A stretch of DNA of 64,000 nt from Caldicellulosiruptor saccharolyticus DSM 8903 (GTDB lineage: Bacteria > Bacillota > Thermoanaerobacteria > Caldicellulosiruptorales > Caldicellulosiruptoraceae). Made by a program: the position numbers and the translations under genes. Position 1 is the stretch's first letter, and each line of letters starts with the position of its first letter. Below are positions 49,577-64,000 of this stretch, in pieces. Location of the stretch: NCBI RefSeq assembly GCF_000016545.1, contig NC_009437.1, positions 661,501 through 725,500 on the forward strand, in the 5' to 3' direction. The notes beneath the pieces are model-generated. The model ran no database searches. It was not told the origin of the DNA and was given only the letters and a program-made list of their open reading frames with translations.

Positions 49577-51726
49577 TTAGTTGATATCCAAAACAAAACC
49601 ATACTTTTGTGATGAAGATTTTATTTTGATACAGCCAATTCGCCAAAGCAAATTTTCGTCGTCTTCTATAAATTCATTTATTGCATCTACAATAACTTTT
49701 CCTTTTGAATCCATAAGTCCAATATTTTTATCTTTCTTTAAAATGTACAGGTCTGTATAGGGCAAAATGGTAATATTATCGTAAGTGGGCTTGACTATGA
49801 ACTTTCCACTTTTATCAATAAATCCCCATTTGCCATTTTTTTTCACCACAAATGTTGTTTTATAAAACTCCATTACTGCCTCAAACTGAGGTTTTATAAT
49901 CATCTTTCCACTTTTATCAATAAAGCCCCATAGTTTGTCTTTCTTAACAGCAGCAATACCATTTGAAAATGAAAAAACTTGATTGAACTGAGGTTGTATA
50001 ACAAGCTTTCCATATTTATTTACGAATCCCCATTTGCCTTTAAGCTTTACTGCACACATTTGGTCAGGAAGCTCCTGGATATCTTCATAAATCGGTTTTA
50101 TAATTATTTTTCCATTTTTATCAATCAAACCCCATTTTTTATTTGACTTAACACATGCCGTGTTATTGTTAAAATAACCGATAAGATCAAATTGGGGTTT
50201 CACAACAAGTTTTCCGTTTATATCAACAAGACCTACCTTTCCACCTGCTTTAACTTTAACCATTCCGTCATAGAAATATACATCCACTTCATCAAACTGA
50301 AAAGGAAGCAAAACTTTGCCGTCTGTGCTAATAAACGGCCATTTGTTGTTTTTCTTAACAGCTGCTAAGATTGTAGGAGATTTTGTATTTGAGTTTGGCA
50401 GATAATATTTCGAATAGAATATTATACTGTCAAATTGAGGTTCAACTACGATGTTTTTATATATTATTCCTCTTTTGCTGCCAAGTGATGTCATGAGAGC
50501 ATCTTCCCTGTTATAACCTGAAAAGTTTGAACCGATATAGTCATACTTTGGGGGAGTATTACTTTTGTATCTTTGCTAATAAAGCCAACTTTTTTACCAC
50601 TGTAAATTCGATAGTAATAATCATCTGAGCTGTAATAGTCTCTTTCAATTTTGTCAAACAAAAAATTACAGATGGGTATGCCATCTTTATTTATAAGGAA
50701 ATATTTTCCATCTTTTTTGGCTACTAAAACTCCACTGCTATTGAATGGTGCAAGTTCGTCATAGACTGGTTGGGCAGTAAACTTTCCTGTCAAATCAATA
50801 ATACCGTATTTTCTCGCTAAAGAAACTATAAATGTTTTTCCATCGATAGAAAAAATATCATCAAATTTGGGTACAACAAGAACATTGTCATTTTGATCAG
50901 CTATTCCCCACTTGCCGTTTTGCTTTATTTCTACAATTTTATTTTCTTCTATCTTTATATCTTCATATTTAGGTTCGATAAAAATTGAAAAGTCTGTTGA
51001 CAAAACTCCGTATTTATTGTCTTTTTTTAATTTTAGATAATTAAGAGCACCTACAACTGTACAGCCATATGATTTATCCTCAAATCCTATTGGCTGCTCA
51101 ATTTTATCATATGATGCTTCAATAGCTTTATTTTGTTCGACAGATACCAGATAACTCTTATTTTCCTTTGCTACTAAATAGACATTTGTAGAACCAACTT
51201 CATAAATTTGGTCATAAACTGGTTGAAGTTCTAATTTACAATCTTGTCTTAAAAGTCCAAACTTCCCATTTTGCTTGACTTTAAAATAATTTTCACTATA
51301 GAAAAAGCTATATACACCCTCAAAAACGGGCTGAGAAAACTTACCTGAGGCTATATTAACAACTCCCCATTTGTTCTCAACTAAATAAGCATAAAGAGTA
51401 TCAGTTAGTGCTTCAATTTTATCAAATTGAGGTTTTAAAATTAGCCTTTGGTTTTTTGAAAATATTCCCCATTTGTTATTCTTCATAATAAGAAATGCTC
51501 TTTCGTCCTTTTTATCAAACTCACGAGGATATGCCAAATCGGCACTTGATACAGGTACTATATTTTCAAATTCTGGTTTTATATATATAAGTTGATTTTT
51601 GGGGAACTTTATAAAATCAATATTTGTTTGAGAAAAAGTTGTTGTGGGATGCGAAATGGCTATAAAAAAGTTAACAACAAGGAAAAAGTCTAAAATTTTT
51701 AAAAATTTTCTCAACTTTAAATTCAC
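49577..51726 (-). pseudogene. Secreted WG-repeat protein, frameshifted
   Basis: Signal-like N terminus (FLKILDFFLVVNFFIAISH) followed by about 14 repeats of the type NKWGxxxxxGKxxIxPxFD. The reading frame from 51726 runs to 50491 and the second from 50494 to 49577. Adding one base in the G5 run at 50550-50554 (C run on the coding strand) gives VILPPKYDYIGSNFSGYN and joins both into one protein of about 715 residues. Single-base homopolymer deletion or assembly error. WG-repeat proteins are extracellular and of unknown role. Confidence 0.75.
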
Positions 51727-51813: not shown

Positions 51814-51831
51814 AATCTTGAGGTGAGTTTT

Positions 51832-52467
51832 ATGCCAAAAAAGACATTTTTGAACCTTCCAGAAGAGAAAAGAAATCTTATAACAGATACATTAATAAAA
51901 TACTTTTCCCAAAAACCTTATCATAAGGTTGATATATCAGATGTAGCAAAAGAGTGCAATGTTGCAAAAGGGAGTATGTACCAGTATTTTGAAAACAAGA
52001 AAGATATGTACTTTTACGCAATAGGGGTCTCTTACCAGAGATTTTTGAAACTTTTTGAAAAGCTTGATATGGTACATGTAAATCTATTTGATTACTATGA
52101 AAATTCAATAGAGACTACTTGGGTCGCAATGAAAGATCTCAAGAGTGAGTACCTGCTTTTGGAAAGAGCGTTTTTTTCACAAGACTCACCCTTTAAAGAT
52201 GAGGTAAATGAGAAATTTTTGAAGCAGTCGAGAGAGTTTTTAGTAAAAATTATAAAGTACAATCAGCAAAAAGGATATATAAGGGATGATATTGATCCTG
52301 TTATAATTTCTATTTTCTTAGAAGGTGCAAGTTTTTATATGAAAAAATTTGTAATCGAAGAAGCACTAAGCAGAACATCAACAACACTTGATCTTGACAT
52401 AAGTTATTTTAAAGATGCACTGTCTCAATTTATAAAACTTTTAAAAGAAGGAATAGGGAAAAAATAA
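51832..52467 (+). CDS. TetR/AcrR-family repressor
   Basis: About 211 residues. The N-terminal helix-turn-helix spans KRNLITDTLIKYFSQKPYHK and VDISDVAKECNVAKGSMYQYF, the typical TetR signature. The C-terminal ligand domain is variable. The ATG at 51832 has TGAGGTGA 7 bases upstream. The identical operator half-sites before this gene and before the ABC ATPase show self-regulation and control of the transporter. Confidence 0.87.
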   Translation: MPKKTFLNLPEEKRNLITDTLIKYFSQKPYHKVDISDVAKECNVAKGSMYQYFENKKDMYFYAIGVSYQRFLKLFEKLDMVHVNLFDYYENSIETTWVAMKDLKSEYLLLERAFFSQDSPFKDEVNEKFLKQSREFLVKIIKYNQQKGYIRDDIDPVIISIFLEGASFYMKKFVIEEALSRTSTTLDLDISYFKDALSQFIKLLKEGIGKK

Positions 52468-52477
52468 ATTTTATATT

Positions 52478-52512
52478 ATGACTTGACAGTCATATGACCA
52501 GTGAGTCATAAT
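52478..52512 (+). promoter_or_regulatory. Promoter with two tandem TetR operators
   Basis: Two abutting 16-bp palindromes, ATGACTTGACAGTCAT (52478-52493) and ATGACCAGTGAGTCAT (52494-52509), cover TTGACA (52483-52488) and CATAAT (52507-52512; 18-base spacer). Both share ATGAC-N6-GTCAT with the operator at 51795. Confidence 0.82.
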
Positions 52513-52549
52513 ATATTGTACAAGTGAAAAGTAAAGGAGAGGATTTGAT

Positions 52550-53248
52550 GTGTTTGTGAAGGTTGAGAATCTTTCAAAAGTCTACAGGATGGGTCAAAAT
52601 ACAATCAAGGCGCTCGATGAAGTTAGTTTTGAGCTCGAAAAAGGAAAAATCTACACTGTGATAGGGCCATCTGGGTCGGGTAAAACCACGCTTTTTAACA
52701 TCCTTGGTGGGCTTGACAGGGCAGATGGAGGCAGAGTTTTTGTTGATGGCAAAGAGATAACTGCAATGGACCAAAAAAGGCTTTCTGAGTACAGGCGCGA
52801 CTATGTGGGTTTTGTATTTCAGTTTTTTAACCTCATAAATGGTCTCACTGTTTATGAAAATGTGCTCTCAAGTGCACATCTTAGCAAAGATCCACTGGAT
52901 GTTGATATGGTATTAAAAATGATGGATGTCTATTCTGAAAAGGACAAATTTCCTTTTGAACTGTCTGGCGGACAGCAGCAAAGGGTGGCAATTGCAAGAG
53001 CAGTTGTCAAAAACCCTGCATTGATTTTGTGCGATGAGCCCACAGGTGCACTTGACTATGACAGCAGCAAACTTGTGTTAAAACTTTTAGAAGATGTAAA
53101 TAAAAAGTTTGGTACAACCATTTTGATAATTACACACAATCTTGCAATTTCTAAAATGGCAAATGCTACATTGAGGCTGAGGTCAGGTAGACTTGTAGAA
53201 TTTTTGAAAAATCCTCAAAAGATTTCTGCTCAAGAGGTGACATGGTGA
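52550..53248 (+). CDS. ABC transporter ATPase, MacB/LolD type
   Basis: 232 residues. Walker [19 protein letters not shown], signature [16 protein letters not shown], Walker [14 protein letters not shown]-loop ITHNL. GTG start (GGAGAGGA upstream). Together with the FtsX-type permease it would form a MacB/YtrE-like exporter, of the sort that transports lipoproteins, antibiotics or peptides. Under TetR control. Confidence 0.9.
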
Positions 53249-55479
53249 TGGTCATCAAAAAAATTCCCCTGCGAGTAATCAAGAGAGAGTTTTTACAGTT
53301 CTTTTCTATAATGCTGCTTGTTGCTATTGCCACAATGACATATACACTTTTTGCTGTGTCAATGCAGGATATAGATTATAACTATGAAATGTTCAAAAAC
53401 AAATACAATCAGGAAGATGGGAATTTTATTACTGCAAAAGAGGTTGATATAAAACTTCTACAAGAAAAATTTAAAATTAATGTAGAACAAAGGCTATTTA
53501 CTAATGTCCAAGATGACCATTTTACACTAAGAGTTTTTTCAGTGCCAAAAGAAATAAACAAACCATATGTCGAAAAAGGCAGAATGCCATCAAAAGGCGA
53601 AATACTCATAGACCCTGCTTTTTACAAAAAACATAAGCTCAAAATAGGGTCAGTGCTGACTGTCGGTAGAGAAAATTTTAAGGTTTCAGGCATTGCTTAT
53701 CTTCCAGATTATATTTACATCATTAAAAATGACCAAGACTTACTTCCTGACCCTGAGCATTTTGGTTTTGCTCTTATGAATGAAGATGAGATGAGAAGAC
53801 TTTTCAACATTTTTCCTGTTCATTATTATTGTTTCAAAGGCAAAGTTGAAAACATTGACAAGTTTAAAGAGTTTTTAAATAGCAACTGGGGGCTTTTGAA
53901 ATTTGTACAAAGAGACCAGAATCCACGAATAATGTATACAGAGATAAAAGTTAAAAATGCAAAGAACTTAACTTTGCCACTCAGTCTTTTTATAATTCTT
54001 GTATCATCTTTTATACTCTTTATTGTCATGCGAAGGGTAATAAATACTATGCATGCTGAAATTGGTACAATCTATTCAATGGGATATACACAAAAAGATG
54101 TACTAAAAGTCTTCATGAGGTTTCCACTTTATATTTGGCTTTTTGGTTCCATCTTCGGTGTTGTACTTGGGGTTATTGAAGCATCTCCTTTTGCACAGTT
54201 TTACAGGTCATATTTTACATTACCAAAGATAAAGTCAATTTTGCCTTGGCAGCACATATTTGTTGCGATACTTCTCCCAGCCATATTTATATTTCTTTCA
54301 GGTTACCTTGCAATCAAGAACTTTTTCAAGCTCACAATTGTTCAAATGCTTCACGGCGTTGATGAAATAAAATTTGGCAAGCTTCCTTCAATAAAGTTTT
54401 TTGACAGATTTGAGTTTGGAACAAGGATTATGCTAAAATATGGCTGGCGTCATGTTGGCAGGGAGCTGATTTTGGCAGTTGGTATAATCTTTTCAACAAT
54501 CCTTATGATGTATGGTATGACTGCAAAGGATTCAATTATAACTGCAATAGAAAGAGCATATGAGAAGAATTTTAAATACAACTATCTTTATCTATTAAAT
54601 TCTGTCTCCACACACCCTGAGATTAAACTCCAAAGCGCAGCTGAGCCATACAACCTTTTGTCTTTTGGCATTTAAGGAACTAAGCTTAGTATTATGATTT
54701 ACGGTATTAAAAGTAACTCAGATATGATAAAGCTGTATGATGAAAAAGGAAAAGAAATCTCTGTGTCAAGTGAACTTATCATAACCAAACCTCTTGCAAG
54801 CAAACTCGGTATTGGCGAAGGAGATAAGATTAAACTAAAAAACAAATTCACAGGCAAAGAATATACTTTAAAAGTAAAAAAAGTTGCCAACCTTCCTGTT
54901 GGGAACAATGGGTATATGGAACTCGAAAGTTTTAATAAGCTTTTTGGATATAGCAGTGGAGAGTATATTGGTATATTCTCAAAAGAAAAGTTGGAAATTC
55001 CACAGAGCTTAATTTTTGAAAGTTATACAAAATCTGAACATTTAAATACAATAAAGGCATCTGCTGGCGATTTATCAAAGACTATAGGTGTGATGGCGCT
55101 AATTGCTGCTGTGCTTGCTCTTTTGATTGTGTATGTTCTGTCTACTTTGACTTTAAATGAAAACAAGAAAAATATAGGAATTTTAAAAATGCTGGGGCAC
55201 AGTGAAAGAAGTATTTTTAAAATGATTCTCGGTTTTAACTACATTTCGTTTTTTATAGGATTTGTTGCAGGAATTCCACTATCTAAAATTACAATGGATG
55301 GGCTTATGAGCACAGTGACAAAAGACACAGATTTTGCAATGAGCCTTGATTTGAGCGTGCAGAGTGTATTGTCTACATTTGTAATACTTCTTTTAGTCTT
55401 TCTGATTTCAAGGTTTTTAGCAAGGCAGAAAATAGCAAGGGTAATGCCGGTTGAAATATTAAAAGGGCAGCTTGATTGA
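53242..55479 (+). pseudogene. FtsX-type ABC permease with an in-frame stop
   Basis: Two consecutive frames of 477 and 261 residues are in the same frame and separated only by the TAA at 54673-54675 and five codons. Read through, they form one permease of about 745 residues with a large extracellular domain after helix 1 (IMLLVAIATMTYTLFAV), the first FtsX domain (LFIILVSSFILFIVM, GSIFGVVLGV) and the second (VMALIAAVLALLIVYVL, IGILKMLGHSERS). A single nonsense mutation explains the break. Start ATG 53242 or 53248. Overlaps the ATPase stop. Confidence 0.8.
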
Positions 55480-56021: not shown

Positions 56022-56111
56022 ATGAGGAAAAGATACTATTGTGTAAAGCAGCATGATATAACAGATTGTGCAGCAGCGAGCTTAGCAACAATTTGCTTGC
56101 AATATAGATAA
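56022..56111 (+). pseudogene. N-terminal fragment of a C39-peptidase bacteriocin transporter
   Basis: 29 codons: RYYCVKQHDITDCAAASLAT, ICLQY. This is the start of the C39 peptidase domain of peptidase-containing ABC transporters (YxCVKQHDxTDCGxACL), with the catalytic Cys of TDC present. The frame stops at 56111, exactly where repeat A (56104) starts, so the rest was removed by recombination at that repeat. Confidence 0.7.
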
Positions 56112-56210
56112 ATTTTACACTATGTATGAGGAGGAAGTGAGATCTTTTTGAAAATTTTAAAAAGCTTGATAACGCTCATATGAGCGTTTATGCAAAAGAC
56201 TATATAGATT
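56104..56210 (+). repeat. Hairpin repeat module A
   Basis: About 107 bases shared with modules B (57088-57187) and C (62972-63087): GATAAATTTTACACTAT, GAGGAAG, then CTTGATAACGCTCA and TGAGCGTTT. The central AACGCTCATATGAGCGTT (56171-56188) is a perfect palindrome. It lies 50 bases before precursor peptide 1. Confidence 0.6.
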
Positions 56211-56234: not shown

Positions 56235-56369
56235 ATGTTGGCAAAAAAGAACACAAAGGTGGGTTGTACACATATTAATATTAAGATTTTTGCCCTCGAC
56301 ATAGGATATACAAGGACAGTGACTGAAAAAAGAGGTAACAAGACCATTACCACTACTATTAAGGCCTAA
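56235..56369 (+). CDS. Cys-containing precursor peptide 1 (divergent)
   Basis: 44 codons, GAAAGGAGGTGAAG site, start MLAKKNTKVGCTHINIKI. It shares the short basic N terminus and the GC motif with peptides 2-4 but not the second cysteine, and has a longer C terminus ending ITTTIKA. Probably a related but altered member. Behind it, at 56386-56400, GACAAGCCCCTCTTTTG resembles one arm of the hairpin at 57492, as if a hairpin once followed here too. Confidence 0.5.
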   Translation: MLAKKNTKVGCTHINIKIFALDIGYTRTVTEKRGNKTITTTIKA

Positions 56370-56414
56370 GAATTGATACTCCAAGGACAAGCCCCTCTTT
56401 TGTTTCCAATAAAT

Positions 56415-56531
56415 ATTTAACAAATATTTTACATAATTTTCATTTAGATTTAAAATCTATTTGCTATATATATAGGTGAAAAAAGAAATAACAGAAAAAA
56501 AGCAATTAAATAGGTTTTTCTACTGTACACC
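56415..56531 (+). repeat. Promoter/leader repeat, copy D2
   Basis: Second copy of the repeat at 55597. TTTACA (56428-56433), 17 bases, TAAAAT (56451-56456) is a good promoter. The unit leads into precursor peptide 2 at 56570 with a GGGAGGTGA site. Repetition suggests that the peptide genes are individually equipped with a promoter and leader and were duplicated as cassettes. Confidence 0.7.
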
Positions 56532-56569
56532 GGGAGAAGTAATTTAAAAGAGGGAAGGGAGGTGAAATA

Positions 56570-56686
56570 ATGAATATAAAAAAATTAAATAAAAATAAAC
56601 AAGGATGCATAAAGATAGGTGCACTTGGTCTTTGTGCAACTGTTGGAGCAATTGTGAAAATGAATGGAATTAATGTGAGAGTATAA
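56570..56686 (+). CDS. Cys-containing precursor peptide 2
   Basis: 38 codons with AGGGAGGTGAA site. Start MNIKKLNKNKQ, then GCIKIGALGLCATVGAIV and a short tail. Two cysteines spaced C-x8-C; the first sits in the shared motif K-x-G-C-I-x-I-G. The short Lys-rich leader and glycine/hydrophobic core resemble small RiPP precursors such as subtilosin (short leader, KGC core). A mature product cannot be defined from sequence. Confidence 0.6.
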   Translation: MNIKKLNKNKQGCIKIGALGLCATVGAIVKMNGINVRV

Positions 56687-56814
56687 AAATAAATTAAGTA
56701 TTGTTCTGATGTTTGAGGAAATTAACTCTCTTGGTGTACAGTTTGTGATATGGACTCATAACATCATAGCAAATTGTGTAAATTCAAGTTATTTAATTAT
56801 TGCAAGATAATTAA

Positions 56815-57054
56815 TTAAGAAATTGAAAGTACATTTTGCAAAATAAAAACACAAAGTATAGATTCTAAAGAGAAATCTCTATGTTTACCGAAATATTGGT
56901 AATAAGTTTTGTAGAAGGATTGAGGAATGAATTTAGAAAGGTCGATGAAGTTGTTGAAGTAGCCAAGGAGCGAATGAGGGTTATTGAGAGCAACGTTTTT
57001 AATGTGCTCATAGAGTTCAAAGAATGAAAGTTGTTTATGATGATTTTTGAACAT
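56815..57054 (-). pseudogene. N-terminal fragment of a DDE transposase
   Basis: 79 codons from the ATG at 57054 (MFKNHHKQLSFFELYEH ... FSLESILCVFILQNVLSI). The style (FSLESxLxxxILQxxLxI) fits N-terminal regions of several clostridial DDE transposases. The catalytic domain is absent. A longer decayed copy of the same protein lies at 62110-62948. Both lie beside a hairpin repeat module. Confidence 0.6.
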
Positions 57055-57087
57055 TTTATCTTCCTCCTCATAGAAAGTATGTTTTAT

Positions 57088-57187
57088 ATAGATAAATTTT
57101 ACACTATCTATAATGAGGAAGGAAGACTTTTTTAAAAAATTTAAAAGGCTTGATAACGCTCATTTTGAGCGTTTCTGCAAAAGGCTA
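57088..57187 (+). repeat. Hairpin repeat module B
   Basis: Second copy of the module (A 56104, C 62972). Hairpin AACGCTCA-TTT-TGAGCGTT at 57155-57173. In this copy the frame from ATG 57113 (MRKEDFFKKFKRLDNAHFER) stays open into peptide 3, but it has no ribosome site. TATGTTTTATATA directly upstream (57078-57090) is also present upstream of module C. Confidence 0.6.
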
Positions 57188-57217
57188 AAGAAATTGAAAA
57201 GAAAGGAGGTGAAAATT

Positions 57218-57334
57218 ATGCTGACAGTTAAATCTAATAAGAGGAAATCAGGGTGTATATATATAGGAGCGACATTTATTGGTTGTAAAACAATTGGGGC
57301 ATATGTAGGTACAATTCAAAAAATAAGAATATAA
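57218..57334 (+). CDS. Cys-containing precursor peptide 3
   Basis: 38 codons, AAAGGAGGTG site 6 bases before the ATG. Starts MLTVKSNKRKS, then GCIYIGATFIGCKTIGAYV. The two cysteines are C-x8-C with the shared GCIxIG motif. The frame is open further upstream to 57113, but the strong ribosome site favours the short form, as for peptides 2 and 4. Followed 36 bases later by peptide 4. Confidence 0.6.
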   Translation: MLTVKSNKRKSGCIYIGATFIGCKTIGAYVGTIQKIRI

Positions 57335-57370
57335 TTTCAATCGATAAAAAGAAAGAAGGAGGTAAAAAGT

Positions 57371-57490
57371 ATGTTGTTGGCAAAAAAGAGAACAAAAAAG
57401 AGTGGTTGTATTGAGATTGGAGTAAACGGTATATGTAAATCAGTTGGTAAAACAATTGCTGTTGTTTGGGGAATTCCAATAAAATTATAA
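57371..57490 (+). CDS. Cys-containing precursor peptide 4
   Basis: 39 codons, GAAGGAGGTA site. Starts MLLAKKRTKKS, then GCIEIGVNGICKSVGKTIAV, then VWGIPIKL. Cysteines C-x7-C and a conserved (V/I)G after the second Cys. Its leader closely resembles that of peptide 1. A strong hairpin lies right behind it, before the maturase gene; such hairpins often limit maturase expression relative to precursor. Confidence 0.6.
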   Translation: MLLAKKRTKKSGCIEIGVNGICKSVGKTIAVVWGIPIKL

Positions 57491-57491
57491 T

Positions 57492-57534
57492 TTTTCTAAA
57501 GACAAGCCCCACTAAGGGGCTTGTCTTTAGAAAA
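57492..57534 (+). promoter_or_regulatory. Strong hairpin between precursor peptides and maturase gene
   Basis: TTCTAAAGACAAGCCCC (57494-57510), loop ACTAA, GGGGCTTGTCTTTAGAA (57516-57532), extended by A-T pairs: about 19 bp perfect stem. No T tract follows on the plus strand except TTTT in AAAATTTTGG, so it is probably an attenuator or RNA-stabilising element. The ribosome site of the maturase (GGAGGTG) follows 7 bases later. Confidence 0.7.
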
Positions 57535-57846
57535 TTTTGGAGGTGTTATTATGGAAGTTTTTAAAATCTCTGAAAATTCACTTATATACTTTGTTGATAA
57601 TATACCCTTTGTTGGTAATTTTGAGTTGGGCAGTGTTATAGCGTTCAATCATAAGGGTTACGATTTTTTTAAAAAGGTTTTGAAAAAGGATACAATAAGT
57701 TTTGATGAATTTTCTCAAGAGGAGAAGAATTGGTTTTCTGCTTTGATGGAATGTGAAATTCTCAAAAATCTTAAAAGTAGTTCTACCCATATCCCAAACA
57801 ATGAAATAGATGCTATATATCTACATTTCACAAATAATTGTAATAT

Positions 57847-58963
57847 TAGCTTGTTGAATAAAACAGATTAACAGAAAAGACAATAAATAGATATATATAA
57901 AAAGCCATCCTCCTTAAGGTAAAATTATAGCAAGAGAAGACTAAAAACACGTAACTAAGGAGGATGGCAATGACTAATTTTATTAAAACACAAAAACAAA
58001 AATTTTTAAAGATACTTATGACAATTGAGAAAGTAATAAAAGCCTTGGGATTAAAGATAAAAAGTAGCAGGAGAGGAAGACCGAAGAAATTTAAGCTAAG
58101 CCATATAATAGCTTGTTTTGTTTACAAAGTCAAAAACAAGATAAACAGTTTCAGGGAATTAGAATACAAGATAAATGAAGATGAAGAATTTAAAAAGGCT
58201 ATAGGGATAGAAAAGAGCCCCGATCATACATATTTTTCGAAATGGGCAAAAGTAATTGAAGAAGAATATATAGAAGGGATAGCAAGAATTTTAGTGAGAG
58301 AAATAGATCCGCAGACAAAAGTTTGTGCTATAGATTCTACACCTTTGAGAAGCTCGAGGGGTGACAAAGAGGCAGAAGTAGGAGTATGTGTTAGTTTAGG
58401 TTTTTACAATGGGTATAAATTACATGTGTTAGCAACAGTTGAAAGCGAGGTTATACCTATAGTATGGTGGTTGACATGTGCAAATATCCATGACAGTAAA
58501 GTAGTAGAACTTTTGTATGAAGCTAAGATATTTGGACCTGAAGTGATATTGGCAGATGCAGGTTATGATTGTGCGAAATGGTTTGAGGTGTCAGATAGAC
58601 TTGGGATGAAGTTTGTAGCGGCGGTAAATAAGAGAAATAGTAAGGATTTCAGTAATGTAAAAAATATTTTGAGGATAAAAAATATGGAATTTTTAAGAAG
58701 CGAAGAAGGACAAAAGTTATATAAGCAGAGGACAAAAATAGAAAGATTATTTGGTAAGTTAAAAGGAGAATACAATTTAGAACAAGTAAGGTTAAGAGGT
58801 TTTAGAACATATAAGAAGCATGTAGACTGGATTATGATTACTTATTTGATAGAGGTCTATATTCAAAAAATTGAAAACTGTAAATTTTCTTTTAAATACA
58901 CGTGGAATAATTTATAGTTCTATATAGTAACATTAATGGTATAATTATTTATTCAACAACTTG
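57847..58963 (+). mobile_element. IS4/IS5-like insertion sequence, copy 1 (1117 bp)
   Basis: Bounded by the direct repeat ATTGTAATAT (57837-57846 and 58964-58973), 10 bp. The ends carry imperfect inverted repeats with core TTGTTGAATAAA (starting about 57851) and TTTATTCAACAA (ending about 58959). Identical to the second copy at 59002-60118. One DDE transposase gene. Inserted between the first and second cysteine codons of the radical SAM motif. Confidence 0.88.
57970..58917 (+). CDS. DDE transposase, IS4/IS5-like (copy 1)
   Basis: About 315 residues. Catalytic residues in VCAIDSTPLRSS (Asp), VILADAGYDCAKW (Asp) and KIERLFGKLKGEYNLEQVRL (Glu, inside the typical R-x-x-I-E-R-x-F motif). N terminus basic (SSRRGRPKKFKLSHI). 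ATG at 57970 with AAGGAGG upstream is preferred over 57964. The assignment to IS4 versus IS5/IS1182 needs a database search. Confidence 0.85.
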   Translation: MTNFIKTQKQKFLKILMTIEKVIKALGLKIKSSRRGRPKKFKLSHIIACFVYKVKNKINSFRELEYKINEDEEFKKAIGIEKSPDHTYFSKWAKVIEEEYIEGIARILVREIDPQTKVCAIDSTPLRSSRGDKEAEVGVCVSLGFYNGYKLHVLATVESEVIPIVWWLTCANIHDSKVVELLYEAKIFGPEVILADAGYDCAKWFEVSDRLGMKFVAAVNKRNSKDFSNVKNILRIKNMEFLRSEEGQKLYKQRTKIERLFGKLKGEYNLEQVRLRGFRTYKKHVDWIMITYLIEVYIQKIENCKFSFKYTWNNL

Positions 58964-59001
58964 ATTGTAATATATATTGCAAAGGGTGTTATTCATATAA
59001 T

Positions 59002-60118
59002 TAGCTTGTTGAATAAAACAGATTAACAGAAAAGACAATAAATAGATATATATAAAAAGCCATCCTCCTTAAGGTAAAATTATAGCAAGAGAAGACTAAA
59101 AACACGTAACTAAGGAGGATGGCAATGACTAATTTTATTAAAACACAAAAACAAAAATTTTTAAAGATACTTATGACAATTGAGAAAGTAATAAAAGCCT
59201 TGGGATTAAAGATAAAAAGTAGCAGGAGAGGAAGACCGAAGAAATTTAAGCTAAGCCATATAATAGCTTGTTTTGTTTACAAAGTCAAAAACAAGATAAA
59301 CAGTTTCAGGGAATTAGAATACAAGATAAATGAAGATGAAGAATTTAAAAAGGCTATAGGGATAGAAAAGAGCCCCGATCATACATATTTTTCGAAATGG
59401 GCAAAAGTAATTGAAGAAGAATATATAGAAGGGATAGCAAGAATTTTAGTGAGAGAAATAGATCCGCAGACAAAAGTTTGTGCTATAGATTCTACACCTT
59501 TGAGAAGCTCGAGGGGTGACAAAGAGGCAGAAGTAGGAGTATGTGTTAGTTTAGGTTTTTACAATGGGTATAAATTACATGTGTTAGCAACAGTTGAAAG
59601 CGAGGTTATACCTATAGTATGGTGGTTGACATGTGCAAATATCCATGACAGTAAAGTAGTAGAACTTTTGTATGAAGCTAAGATATTTGGACCTGAAGTG
59701 ATATTGGCAGATGCAGGTTATGATTGTGCGAAATGGTTTGAGGTGTCAGATAGACTTGGGATGAAGTTTGTAGCGGCGGTAAATAAGAGAAATAGTAAGG
59801 ATTTCAGTAATGTAAAAAATATTTTGAGGATAAAAAATATGGAATTTTTAAGAAGCGAAGAAGGACAAAAGTTATATAAGCAGAGGACAAAAATAGAAAG
59901 ATTATTTGGTAAGTTAAAAGGAGAATACAATTTAGAACAAGTAAGGTTAAGAGGTTTTAGAACATATAAGAAGCATGTAGACTGGATTATGATTACTTAT
60001 TTGATAGAGGTCTATATTCAAAAAATTGAAAACTGTAAATTTTCTTTTAAATACACGTGGAATAATTTATAGTTCTATATAGTAACATTAATGGTATAAT
60101 TATTTATTCAACAACTTG
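59002..60118 (+). mobile_element. IS4/IS5-like insertion sequence, copy 2 (1117 bp)
   Basis: Same length and apparently identical sequence as copy 1. Flanked by ATATAAT (58995-59001 and 60119-60125), 7 bp. It lies only 28 bp of original gene after the end of copy 1's duplicated target. The duplication length differs from the 10 bp of copy 1, which is unusual for one element. Confidence 0.85.
59125..60072 (+). CDS. DDE transposase, IS4/IS5-like (copy 2)
   Basis: Protein sequence identical to that of copy 1 (57970-58917) with all three catalytic acidic residues. Start chosen as in copy 1. Two identical intact transposases side by side imply recent activity and could promote further rearrangement or loss of the region between them. 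Confidence 0.85.
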   Translation: MTNFIKTQKQKFLKILMTIEKVIKALGLKIKSSRRGRPKKFKLSHIIACFVYKVKNKINSFRELEYKINEDEEFKKAIGIEKSPDHTYFSKWAKVIEEEYIEGIARILVREIDPQTKVCAIDSTPLRSSRGDKEAEVGVCVSLGFYNGYKLHVLATVESEVIPIVWWLTCANIHDSKVVELLYEAKIFGPEVILADAGYDCAKWFEVSDRLGMKFVAAVNKRNSKDFSNVKNILRIKNMEFLRSEEGQKLYKQRTKIERLFGKLKGEYNLEQVRLRGFRTYKKHVDWIMITYLIEVYIQKIENCKFSFKYTWNNL

Positions 60119-61077
60119 ATATAATGAGTATAGAAACAAAAAAAATTTGGATCTACCTGTGGACGTTTTCATATATAGCATTAAACAATTAAAGAACTAT
60201 GGACTTAATAAAATTATTATATCTGGTGGTGAACCTACATTAAGGGATGATTTGGAATTTTTACTAAGAGAAATAAAAGAAAATATATCAATTGAATATG
60301 TGTGTTTAATAACAAATGGTATTCACTTTCCAGAAAAACTTATAAATGTTGTTAAGAAGTATGTAGATGAAGTTTCAGTTTCAATTGATGGATACAATGA
60401 AAATATAAGTTTTATAAGACCAGCAGGTATATATAGCAGTGTGATTGACACAGTAAGAGTTTTAAAAGAAAACGAAATTAATGTAAGTATGATAGTAACA
60501 TTACATAAACAAAATATGGAGGTTATGAATGAATATAAATTATTAAGTGAAAAATTAGAAGTTCCTTTTAGTTATAGCATTCTTGTTTGTAATAATAAAA
60601 ATAGAGACGAATGTAAAGAATTCGAATTTGATGATAATTCATTAAATAAAATCAAGTGGGATCAAGATATTGAAAATACAAAAATAGAAAATTTCGAATT
60701 TGCAACCAGATTAAGTTGTGAAGCAGGTAGAAGGCTATTGAGCATTGCTGCAAACGGAGATGTGTTTCCATGCCATATGCTTCACGACGAATGCTTAAAG
60801 TTTGGAAATATAAATGACATGTCAATACCGGAGATTCTTATTTCCCCCAAGAGGTTATTGTTTAAATTTATTACTGTTGACTTTATCAAAGAATGTAGTG
60901 CATGTAAATTTAGATATTTATGTGGAGGAGGATGTCGTGCTAATGCTTACTATAAGAATGGTGATTTATTAAGCAAAGATCCATATTGTTTAATGTATTA
61001 TAATTTTTATAATACAATACTTGATTTATTAAAACAGCAAAATTTAGCCTACAAAAATATTTCGAGGGAGGAATTAA

Positions 61078-61755
61078 ATGAGAAACAAATTACCTAATAT
61101 ACGAAAAATAAAGCAACTATATCCAATGTATCTTTATTTATACATTGAAATATGTGGTCTTATATTTATACCATTTATACTTTATATAGGTTGGTTAATG
61201 ATATTGACCATAGTTGCTAATAAACCATTTACAGAAGAAATGAATTATTCAAGTTTAAAGGATTTAGTGTTTCAGTATTCAATTCCTTTTTCTGTATTCT
61301 TTGGTATATTACCAGTGTTTTATGTCCTTTTTTTTAAAAGGTTGAAACTAAAAGAAATAAATATATTACCAAGTAAAAATAAGAGGTACATTTTTTCAGT
61401 CTTATTATTAATAATAATTTTCACTTTTGTAATAATATACGCTAAACAAAAACTATCTACTGAGCTTTTCTTAGTTTTAGTTATACATAATTTTTTCGTA
61501 GCATTTACTGAGGAGTTGTTAGCAAGAGGCGTAATTCTTTCACTGTTATTAAAAGCAATGGGGCCATTGGCAAGTATAATACTGAATGGAGTAATATTTG
61601 CTTGTGTTTTTCACAGCGCAGCAGATTTTGTTATTAATTTGATATTAAGACTTCCACTAGGAATATTATTAGCATTTCTTTCGTATTGGACAAGAAGCAT
61701 ACATTCTTCAGTGTTATTTCATTGGTTGTATAATGTTGTGGTAGAGTTTTTATAA
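61078..61755 (+). CDS. CPBP-family membrane metalloprotease
   Basis: 225 residues with about seven hydrophobic segments. Motif 1 is AFTEELLARGVIL (EExxxR), motif 2 FACVFHSAADF (FxxxH), motif 3 SSVLFHWLYN (H-x3-N-like). CPBP proteins are Rce1-like proteases often placed in bacteriocin loci for maturation or self-immunity. GGGAGGA precedes ATG 61078, and the gene overlaps the maturase stop by 20 bases, so it belongs to the same operon. In its present state its translation depends on transcription past the two elements. Confidence 0.8.
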   Translation: MRNKLPNIRKIKQLYPMYLYLYIEICGLIFIPFILYIGWLMILTIVANKPFTEEMNYSSLKDLVFQYSIPFSVFFGILPVFYVLFFKRLKLKEINILPSKNKRYIFSVLLLIIIFTFVIIYAKQKLSTELFLVLVIHNFFVAFTEELLARGVILSLLLKAMGPLASIILNGVIFACVFHSAADFVINLILRLPLGILLAFLSYWTRSIHSSVLFHWLYNVVVEFL

Positions 61756-62971: not shown

Positions 62972-63087
62972 ATATGTTTTATATACACATATTTTTCTAC
63001 AACTATGAGAAGGAAGATGAATCTTTTTTTAATCTTCTAAAAATTGGTGACTCTCATTTTGAGCATTTTTACAAATGGCTATATAGT
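62972..63087 (+). repeat. Hairpin repeat module C
   Basis: Third, most diverged copy: TATGTTTTATATACACATA, GAGAAGGAAG, TTGGTGACTCTCATTTTGAGCATTTT. The stem is shortened to CTCA-TTT-TGAG. It lies directly before the ABC exporter gene, in the same position as modules A and B before precursor peptides. Confidence 0.5.
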
Positions 63088-63114
63088 ATTATCTTACTTG
63101 GAGGAGAAAATAAA

Positions 63115-64000
63115 GTGAAACAGGACATTATGTGGTTGATTAGCAAACAAAAGAAATTTTGGAAATTAAGTTTACTTTGCATCGTAGGCGAAATATTTTA
63201 TATTGCATTAATAGAGATAGCACCAATTGTTTCTATGATGTTAATAGAAGCTTTAATACATAAAGCTCAAAGTCATATTATTTATAAAAGTCTAATTTTT
63301 TTCACATTAGTATGGATATTGCAGCCAATTATGTGGTATATGGTGATTGTTTTAGCTATAAGTTTAAGTGAAAATATAAAAGAAAGCTTAAGAAATAATT
63401 GCTTTGAAAGCTTCATATTTTCATCAACGACTAATTTTCTTCAAAATAATTCAATGGGCACAATGGTAACTAGAATATTAGAGGACGTAGATGAAATTGG
63501 AAATTTTGCACAAAATTTGATTTTAAATTTTACAAAGAATTTACTTATAGCGACTATTTCTATGATAATTATGTTATCAATGGCTCCGGCACTTACAATA
63601 ATATTTATTGTAATATTTGGCATTTTATTCCTGTTCATTCTAAAAAAATCAAATCAACTTGGTGATTTACAAAATGAACTTCAGAGAGTTATTGACAAAA
63701 TGAATTCATTTTTACCAAACATAATAAGAAACATTATTACGATAAAAGTTTGTAATGCACAGTCTCTTATAAATGAGGAATTTCAAGTTACAAACAAAGA
63801 AATAAAAAGGAAAACAATAAAATTACTGAAAATATTGACACTAATAAGTATGTATGCATCTGCTGTTGCTGTGCTGGTAATTGTTATAATTTATGCTGGG
63901 GGTTCAATTTATATTCTTAGTGGGAAAGGGACGGTTGGAATATTAGTTGCGTTGACGATGTATTTTCAGAATTTTGTTGGTGCTGTGAATGAATTATTTG
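63115..64000 (+). CDS. ABC exporter, transmembrane part (partial, runs off the window)
   Basis: 295 codons are visible from a GTG at 63115 (TTGGAGGAG, 8 bases upstream). The N-terminal segments (LCIVGEIFYIALIEIAPIV, WILQPIMWYMVIVLAISL, LLIATISMIIMLSMAPALTI) fit ABC_membrane exporters (type I, six helices), with NNSMGTMVTRILEDVDEIGN as the coupling-helix motif and KVCNAQSLINEEF as the family's K-x-x-x-A-E/Q region. The ATPase domain should follow beyond the window. It would export the modified peptides. Confidence 0.8.
   Translation, partial: MKQDIMWLISKQKKFWKLSLLCIVGEIFYIALIEIAPIVSMMLIEALIHKAQSHIIYKSLIFFTLVWILQPIMWYMVIVLAISLSENIKESLRNNCFESFIFSSTTNFLQNNSMGTMVTRILEDVDEIGNFAQNLILNFTKNLLIATISMIIMLSMAPALTIIFIVIFGILFLFILKKSNQLGDLQNELQRVIDKMNSFLPNIIRNIITIKVCNAQSLINEEFQVTNKEIKRKTIKLLKILTLISMYASAVAVLVIVIIYAGGSIYILSGKGTVGILVALTMYFQNFVGAVNELF

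Follow-up and report, generated by a model that had tools for sequence, protein, structure and literature searches.

Short Cys peptides beside a radical SAM/SPASM maturase in Caldicellulosiruptor saccharolyticus: probable precursors of an apparently undescribed RiPP family

Introduction

Do four short Cys-containing open reading frames of Caldicellulosiruptor saccharolyticus DSM 8903, located next to the remains of a radical SAM gene, encode RiPP precursors, and do these belong to a family already described? The window analyzed here is the whole stretch of 64,000 nucleotides at positions 661,501 to 725,500 of contig NC_009437.1, and all coordinates refer to it unless a locus is named. A first-pass annotation, made from the letters of the window, had read these frames as a candidate undescribed RiPP. 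This reading was supported by our analysis, as the precursors pair with a dedicated maturase in two phyla. We consider it quite probable that the four peptides serve as precursors in a family of radical-SAM-modified RiPPs that is apparently undescribed and bears two unnested Cys rings, which would be closed by thioethers.

Results and Discussion

Four Precursor Genes and a Broken Maturase Gene

The four frames are the following:

56235 to 56369, plus strand: precursor peptide 1, 44 aa, one Cys, Thr-rich C-terminal tail, MLAKKNTKVGCTHINIKIFALDIGYTRTVTEKRGNKTITTTIKA
56570 to 56686, plus strand: precursor peptide 2, 38 aa, CIKIG-ALGL-CATVG, MNIKKLNKNKQGCIKIGALGLCATVGAIVKMNGINVRV
57218 to 57334, plus strand: precursor peptide 3, 38 aa, CIYIG-ATFIG-CKTIG, MLTVKSNKRKSGCIYIGATFIGCKTIGAYVGTIQKIRI
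57371 to 57490, plus strand: precursor peptide 4, 39 aa, CIEIG-VNGI-CKSVG, MLLAKKRTKKSGCIEIGVNGICKSVGKTIAVVWGIPIKL

The annotation had announced four genes of 38–44 codons with strong ribosome sites. Both positions and sites were confirmed, a GGAGGTGA-like ribosome site being present directly 5' of all four frames. In peptides 2–4 the first Cys occupies position 13 and the second lies 8–9 residues further, and not 7–8 as initially stated. In peptide 1, an Ala replaces the Cys of the second unit; the orthologue of this peptide is the sole precursor in locus L040, where it adjoins an intact maturase. A 12-row family profile (A3) detected four precursor sites in the 2.97-Mb single-contig genome (E about 1e-18 to 1e-13) and no further match below E 0.6. 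Also, pS reached 0.32 vs. a pN of 0.09 when 14 close homologue pairs of precursor ORFs were pooled, therefore these frames evolve as coding sequence, under selection at the protein level.

The radical SAM/SPASM, CPBP and ABC genes reported from the same locus are all present, the maturase gene being broken:

57489 to 57537, plus strand: strong stem-loop that follows precursor peptide 4 and precedes the maturase, at -31.5 kcal/mol (z -7.4)
57551 to 57846, plus strand: N-terminal piece of the maturase, RRE-like region, ending at the first IS insertion
57847 to 58963, no strand assigned: IS copy 1, transposase ORF 57964-58917 (DDE_Tnp_1)
57837 to 57846 and 58964 to 58973: target duplication of IS copy 1, ATTGTAATAT
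58964 to 59001, plus strand: middle piece of the maturase (38 bp) between the IS copies, CxxxCxxC codons
59002 to 60118, no strand assigned: IS copy 2, transposase ORF 59119-60072
60119 to 61097, plus strand: C-terminal piece of the maturase, remaining radical SAM domain and SPASM domain
61078 to 61755, plus strand: CPBP (Rce1-like) intramembrane protease, proposed leader peptidase
62974 to 64000 and past the window end, plus strand: ABC transporter with transmembrane region, proposed exporter (623 aa in L038)

The two IS copies, identical over 1119 bp and associated with the target duplications ATTGTAATAT and ATATAAT, leave the maturase in three pieces. This disruption is probably a recent event, because the IS copies are identical and the precursors intact. 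With its maturase broken twice, the cluster is probably inactive in this genome, so that the four precursors would remain unmodified. Stem-loops 3' of the precursor were also found in L039, L040, L042 and L148 (z -3.4 to -7.4 over the five loci folded), and such a structure would suit a high precursor-to-enzyme ratio.

Close Relatives of the Cluster

In a search of 41 genomes with the C-terminal maturase piece as query, close orthologues turned up at 85% and 58% in two Caldicellulosiruptor and at 44–45% in two Thermoanaerobacter, and a scan of the genome collection added the maturase of an Eggerthellaceae MAG (31%). All five are intact and all have adjoining family peptides. There are three precursors in L039 and one in L040, one in each Thermoanaerobacter (MLFAFAGGNKKAGCISVGVVFCVNIGYNYNNWSI and a variant with one residue changed), and two in the MAG (MLFLSSGNAGCVNVGFVLCVSLGYDPLNL and MLFFSKALSAGCMSLGVGLCLTWGASNGTWTG). 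The family is present in 3 of the 12 Caldicellulosiruptor genomes searched, and CPBP protease and ABC genes accompany it in the Firmicutes-type loci and in the MAG.

A plasmid of Streptococcus salivarius (NZ_CP018188.1; L055 5870-8843) encodes an unannotated one-Cys member (MLKFSTKKTKKAGCVSVGALVSVSIGHYIKEVKSTV), with Ser in place of the second Cys, together with a CPBP gene. ISSag10, together with lnu(C), interrupts its maturase, into which mobile DNA has thus been inserted independently of the case in the window. In the Thermoanaerobacter relative G022, a transposase-like gene is inserted in the locus, no maturase is left there and the precursor loses its frame after CVSIGAVF; judging from these sequences, precursor decay accompanies maturase loss. 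A motif scan of the first 104 loci (~0.98 Mb, mostly other radical SAM loci) matched only known family loci, from which the motif was derived, so that only the absence of matches elsewhere is informative.

A Large Group of Members in Coriobacteriia

When 398 Coriobacteriia genomes were searched with a maturase profile built from five sequences (A2), near-full-length relatives were detected in 67 of them, nearly all at E 1e-81 to 1e-118; the maturase of the Eggerthellaceae MAG itself scored E 6e-196. We analyzed 71 maturase loci (L139-L209), the MAG not being counted, and in 66 of these a short precursor, itself intact, lies no more than ~1.2 kb away, in most cases directly downstream. The absence of the peptides beside maturases of related genomes, which would have spoken against the initial reading, was therefore not observed. 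The precursor begins with MLF in 63/71 loci, and with a GTG codon in L183 and L186 (VQFICIPQDIVPCVQLGFGDAPCLIIGA, first residue read as Met), and that of L207, with ~65 aa, is above the first length limit of the scan. Of the other five loci, L206 has a frameshifted precursor and L195 is cut off by the contig end; L156, L167 and L185 (3/71) yielded no recognizable precursor. As a control, the same scan was applied to 1.5 Mb of sequence from the same loci and gave 8 matches, of which 7 lacked the motif and were chance-like and one (MLFHSEAQMMSLCFAIGILEIGY in L153) was family-like; the precursors of L183, L186, L206 and L207 were picked by eye after the scan and stand outside this control.

The family is common in Coriobacteriia, including gut bacteria such as Eggerthella. 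Genome G492, taken as the type strain of the human-gut species Eggerthella lenta, carries the precursor MLFYSDAEPLSVCYPIGFNGSCFAVGF behind a perfect ribosome site. The usual operon consists of the maturase, the precursor and a four-helix DUF2975 membrane protein, with an HTH_26 regulator in about a third of the cases. A DUF2975-like protein was found near the precursor in 56/71 loci and HTH_26 in 25/71, and no conserved protease or exporter was detected within 6 kb. The structure model of the DUF2975 protein, with its four helices, had no significant PDB match, and the fold yields no function. Several genomes (G633, G667, G458, G642) possess two or three maturase loci of different clades, the precursors of which differ where recognized.

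Viral contigs and phages contained only distant radical SAM relatives, and the motif scan of the viral loci gave no match. Plasmids provided one true relative, that of S. salivarius; the other five matches were more distant, and no family peptide was found in the four of them that were motif-scanned. Beyond the known Caldicellulosiruptor loci, a sample of 398 Bacillota genomes contained 12 more distant relatives, in which most of the N-terminal domain is missing and no family peptide occurs within ~1.5 kb on either side. The 13 matching genomes among 396 Actinomycetota were all already in the Coriobacteriia set.

The Maturase and Its Link to the Precursors

The CxxxCxxC motif, seven SPASM Cys and a SPASM Gly, eleven positions in all that include every Fe-S ligand Cys, are invariant in 76/76 maturases. 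The SPASM pattern reads C-X12-G-X4-C, C-X2-C-X5-C-X3-C, C, and the Pfam SPASM and Radical_SAM models both scored above cut-off. Based on this Cys pattern, the enzyme qualifies as a putative radical SAM/SPASM peptide maturase. The AF2 model of the 85% orthologue (mean pLDDT 91) had CteB (5wgg) as its best PDB match (Z 27.9, 369 residues aligned), with further high matches to anSME, ChlB, SuiB, SkfB and TigE. The N-terminal domain of the model is made of a strand and two helices. The alignment with CteB spans residues 11-413 and superposes at least 35 residues of this domain, which supports its assignment as RRE-like.

Precursors and maturases also vary together. The Cys-class labels (one-Cys, two-Cys, none) required 10 changes on the tree of the 76 maturases vs. 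26 when shuffled, and none of 200 shuffles was as low. For the two-Cys loci, maturase and precursor distances were correlated (Mantel r 0.73, permutation maximum 0.32), a value that partly reflects shared descent. The adjacency of precursor and maturase is kept across genomes, and by this feature the loci may be classed as RiPP gene clusters.

Anatomy of the Precursors

The two-Cys precursors follow the layout (12 residues)-C-x-x-[IV]-G-(3-5)-C-x-x-Φ-G-x, in which residue 13 is almost always the first Cys and the linker between the two C-x-x-Φ-G units varies by 1–2 residues. Among these two-Cys precursors, Gly was found at +4 of both Cys in 38/38 scored, a set from which four members with deviating Cys arrangements were left out. 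Position +3 varies among Ile, Val, Pro and other residues, Pro being present in seven second units. The GCIxIG...C motif described initially is refined here to a C-x-x-Φ-G unit present twice, the second Cys being replaceable. The one-Cys precursors (n = 21) have a second unit without its Cys, Ile, Val or Phe at +3, a variable +4, and a Gly at +9, the penultimate residue, in every case, for a total length of 21 to 25. The first Cys is retained in every precursor found.

Nearly all Coriobacteriia precursors (L139-L209) start with M-L-F. They mostly measure 21–28 aa, most being within 21–38 aa, and those of L207, L208 and L209 have longer C-terminal tails. The previously noted short leader followed by a Gly/hydrophobic core holds across the two phyla. 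The MLF start, if formylated, corresponds to fMLF, the classical ligand of formyl-peptide receptors, which may be a coincidence.

Proposed Biosynthesis

We propose that the leader, M-L-F or Lys-rich, is bound by the RRE-like domain at the N-terminus of the maturase, and that the radical SAM centre would then join each Cys through an S-C thioether to a residue within the same unit. The acceptor would most likely be the Gly at +4, the best guess given its invariance and the variability of +3, and two small unnested rings would result, or one ring in one-Cys members. In the latter, where +4 is variable and the fixed Gly stands at +9, a different or larger ring is possible, closed at +9 or at +3/+4. 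As their position suggests, the CPBP protease could trim the leader and the ABC transporter could export the product in Firmicutes and in the Eggerthellaceae MAG. A function of the Coriobacteriia DUF2975 protein in immunity or sensing would be a guess.

Such a Cys-Gly (i to i+4) thioether, if true, is a ring type absent from the literature examined. The strict spacing of the two units provides a concrete and cheaply testable prediction of ring size, and the intact maturase-precursor pairs can be expressed in E. coli. Genetic tools now exist for E. lenta, according to PMC9734109, thus the role of the peptide in vivo can be addressed directly in this human-gut species. The shortness of the precursors makes them likely to be missed by gene callers, as illustrated by the unannotated S. 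salivarius peptide.

Alternative Readings

The rings could also be nested as in subtilosin, in a hairpin where the second Cys is joined to an inner residue and the first to the core's C-terminal end. The one-Cys peptides lend themselves to such a fold, their sole invariant Gly lying nine residues off at the C-terminus (21/21), and the peptides show a superficial N-K-x-G-C resemblance to subtilosin. The AlbA model also matches two maturases, at 91 and 67 bits, but its cut-off is 850 bits, and each Cys sits in its own fixed-spacing C-x-x-Φ-G unit with a linker that varies by 1–2 residues, hence nesting seems unlikely to us. As SPASM enzymes catalyze several non-thioether reactions, the peptides might instead undergo epimerisation, C-C bond formation or Gly/Ile conversion, the Cys being used otherwise. 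The I/V-G pairs are indeed conserved as strongly as the Cys, and WgkB, on some maturases, scores equal to StsB. However, the first Cys is kept in all precursors found, the thioether maturase CteB gives the best structural match, and the peptides lack conserved partners of the kind used by C-C linkers (aromatic residues or Lys), which makes this chemistry improbable. The small ORFs are short and hydrophobic, as chance frames or unmodified membrane peptides unrelated to the maturase would be; yet the 66/71 pairing, the purifying selection, the fixed spacing and the covariation with maturase clades leave this explanation with almost no credit, and chance ORFs were rejected on the basis of selection, spacing and the control scans.

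The role of the product in Coriobacteriia is a distinct matter, since an intracellular or membrane signal, or a cofactor, is compatible with thioether chemistry. Precursors mostly of 21–28 aa beside DUF2975 and HTH_26 genes, of a length similar to that of mycofactocin or PQQ precursors, and the lack of a conserved exporter or protease within 6 kb are consistent with such a role, whereas the Firmicutes relatives and the Eggerthellaceae MAG do have protease and exporter genes; we regard it as conceivable, though rather doubtful. Only tentatively, then, do we suggest that the Coriobacteriia precursors carry the Cys-Gly (i to i+4) thioether and act as intracellular or membrane signals with DUF2975/HTH_26, and not as exported bacteriocins. 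For the family as a whole, we retain the reading of radical-SAM-modified RiPPs with two unnested rings.

Comparison with Known Systems

The precursors, tested against NCBIfam, Pfam and PHROGs, matched no family at cut-off, and assignment to a curated peptide family was rejected. A match to a known non-RiPP family, which would also have contradicted the initial reading, was accordingly not obtained. The nearest NCBIfam maturase models, including StsB and WgkB, were far below their cut-offs.

Streptosactin (GggA/GggB, the maturase being also named StsB) of streptococci likewise combines a small precursor with a radical SAM-SPASM maturase, and has two unnested Cys rings per precursor, a topology that is proposed for the present family. 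StsB was the top NCBIfam match of one Coriobacteriia maturase and the second for two Firmicutes maturases, but the scores with this model (NF045574) were 101.7, 131 and 121.8 bits for a cut-off of 625. In streptosactin, each Cys is paired with the +3 residue (C25-S28 and C31-G34) (PMC8172795). The C-x-x-S/G acceptor at +3 thus differs from the invariant Gly at +4 found here, and the cluster context differs as well. Subtilosin A (SboA/AlbA) has a short leader, a Gly/hydrophobic core and a radical SAM/SPASM maturase in common with our family. Its three thioethers form a nested hairpin, whereas nearly all of our precursors have two or one core Cys, and the AlbA model (NF012164) gave 91.1 and 67.3 bits vs. 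its cut-off of 850. The first-pass annotation had compared the layout with subtilosin while noting that motif and Cys count differ. The likeness and the differences are both borne out, but by spacing the unnested streptosactin is closer than the nested subtilosin, and by analogy the family would be streptosactin-like in topology without being a member of it.

Ranthipeptides (PapA/PapB, C-x3-D/E) share a Cys with a candidate partner four residues on, but this partner is Asp/Glu, while our peptides have Gly (C-x3-G); the PapB model (NF047865) gave 72.8, 98.8 and 80.1 bits for a cut-off of 340. In SCIFF peptides, about 45 residues contain six Cys. Their maturase CteB is the best solved structural match, but TIGR03974 stayed well below cut-off for the present family. 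Thuricin CD-like clusters have been described in Caldicellulosiruptor kristjanssonii (Calkr_0220-0226) and Thermoanaerobacter mathranii (PMC3132745). They share with ours the genera, small Cys peptides, radical SAM genes and an ABC gene, but have two radical SAM enzymes and a precursor GG site at Gly14, and are therefore a distinct cluster (PMC3132745).

The annotators had known of no described family with this motif. Neither the curated models nor the open literature searched contains it, although a prior listing is possible, for instance in connection with PMC9062424, a paper that lists 22 unreported pathways. Within these bounds, the peptides add a RiPP family absent from both.

Other Features of the Cluster Surroundings

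The same regulator/ABC/permease set precedes the cluster in the window (51823-55479) and in L040 (13100-16756, genome G008), and the cluster is at a different genomic place in G004. The window permease is split at 54675/54694; it is a single 745-aa frame in L040. On the minus strand, the product of the ORF at 50491-51726 contains five WG_beta repeats (Pfam E 1.6e-21); a similar-looking repeat-rich ORF adjoins it at 49577-50494.

A ~110-nt repeat is located 5' of peptides 1 and 3 (56102-56210 and 57086-57195), and its G004 copy is directly upstream of the ABC gene of that genome. It carries the palindrome AACGCTCA-N2-4-TGAGCGTT, imperfectly matched in one copy. This palindrome occurred at 1–24 copies per genome in 12/12 Caldicellulosiruptor (reversed control, 0), and such dispersion led us to reject it as a cluster-specific regulator.

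At 56022-56111, a 29-codon ORF (VKQHDITDCAAASLATIC) is similar to the beginning of a C39 peptidase, with a Pfam E of 0.012 that does not reach the cut-off. It may be the remnant of a peptidase-ABC exporter, and is also present in L040. Finally, the minus-strand ORF at 56815-57054, between peptides 2 and 3, had no Pfam hit; it resembles the N-terminus of a 482-aa ORF of L038 (11588-13036, minus strand) and is probably a transposase fragment.
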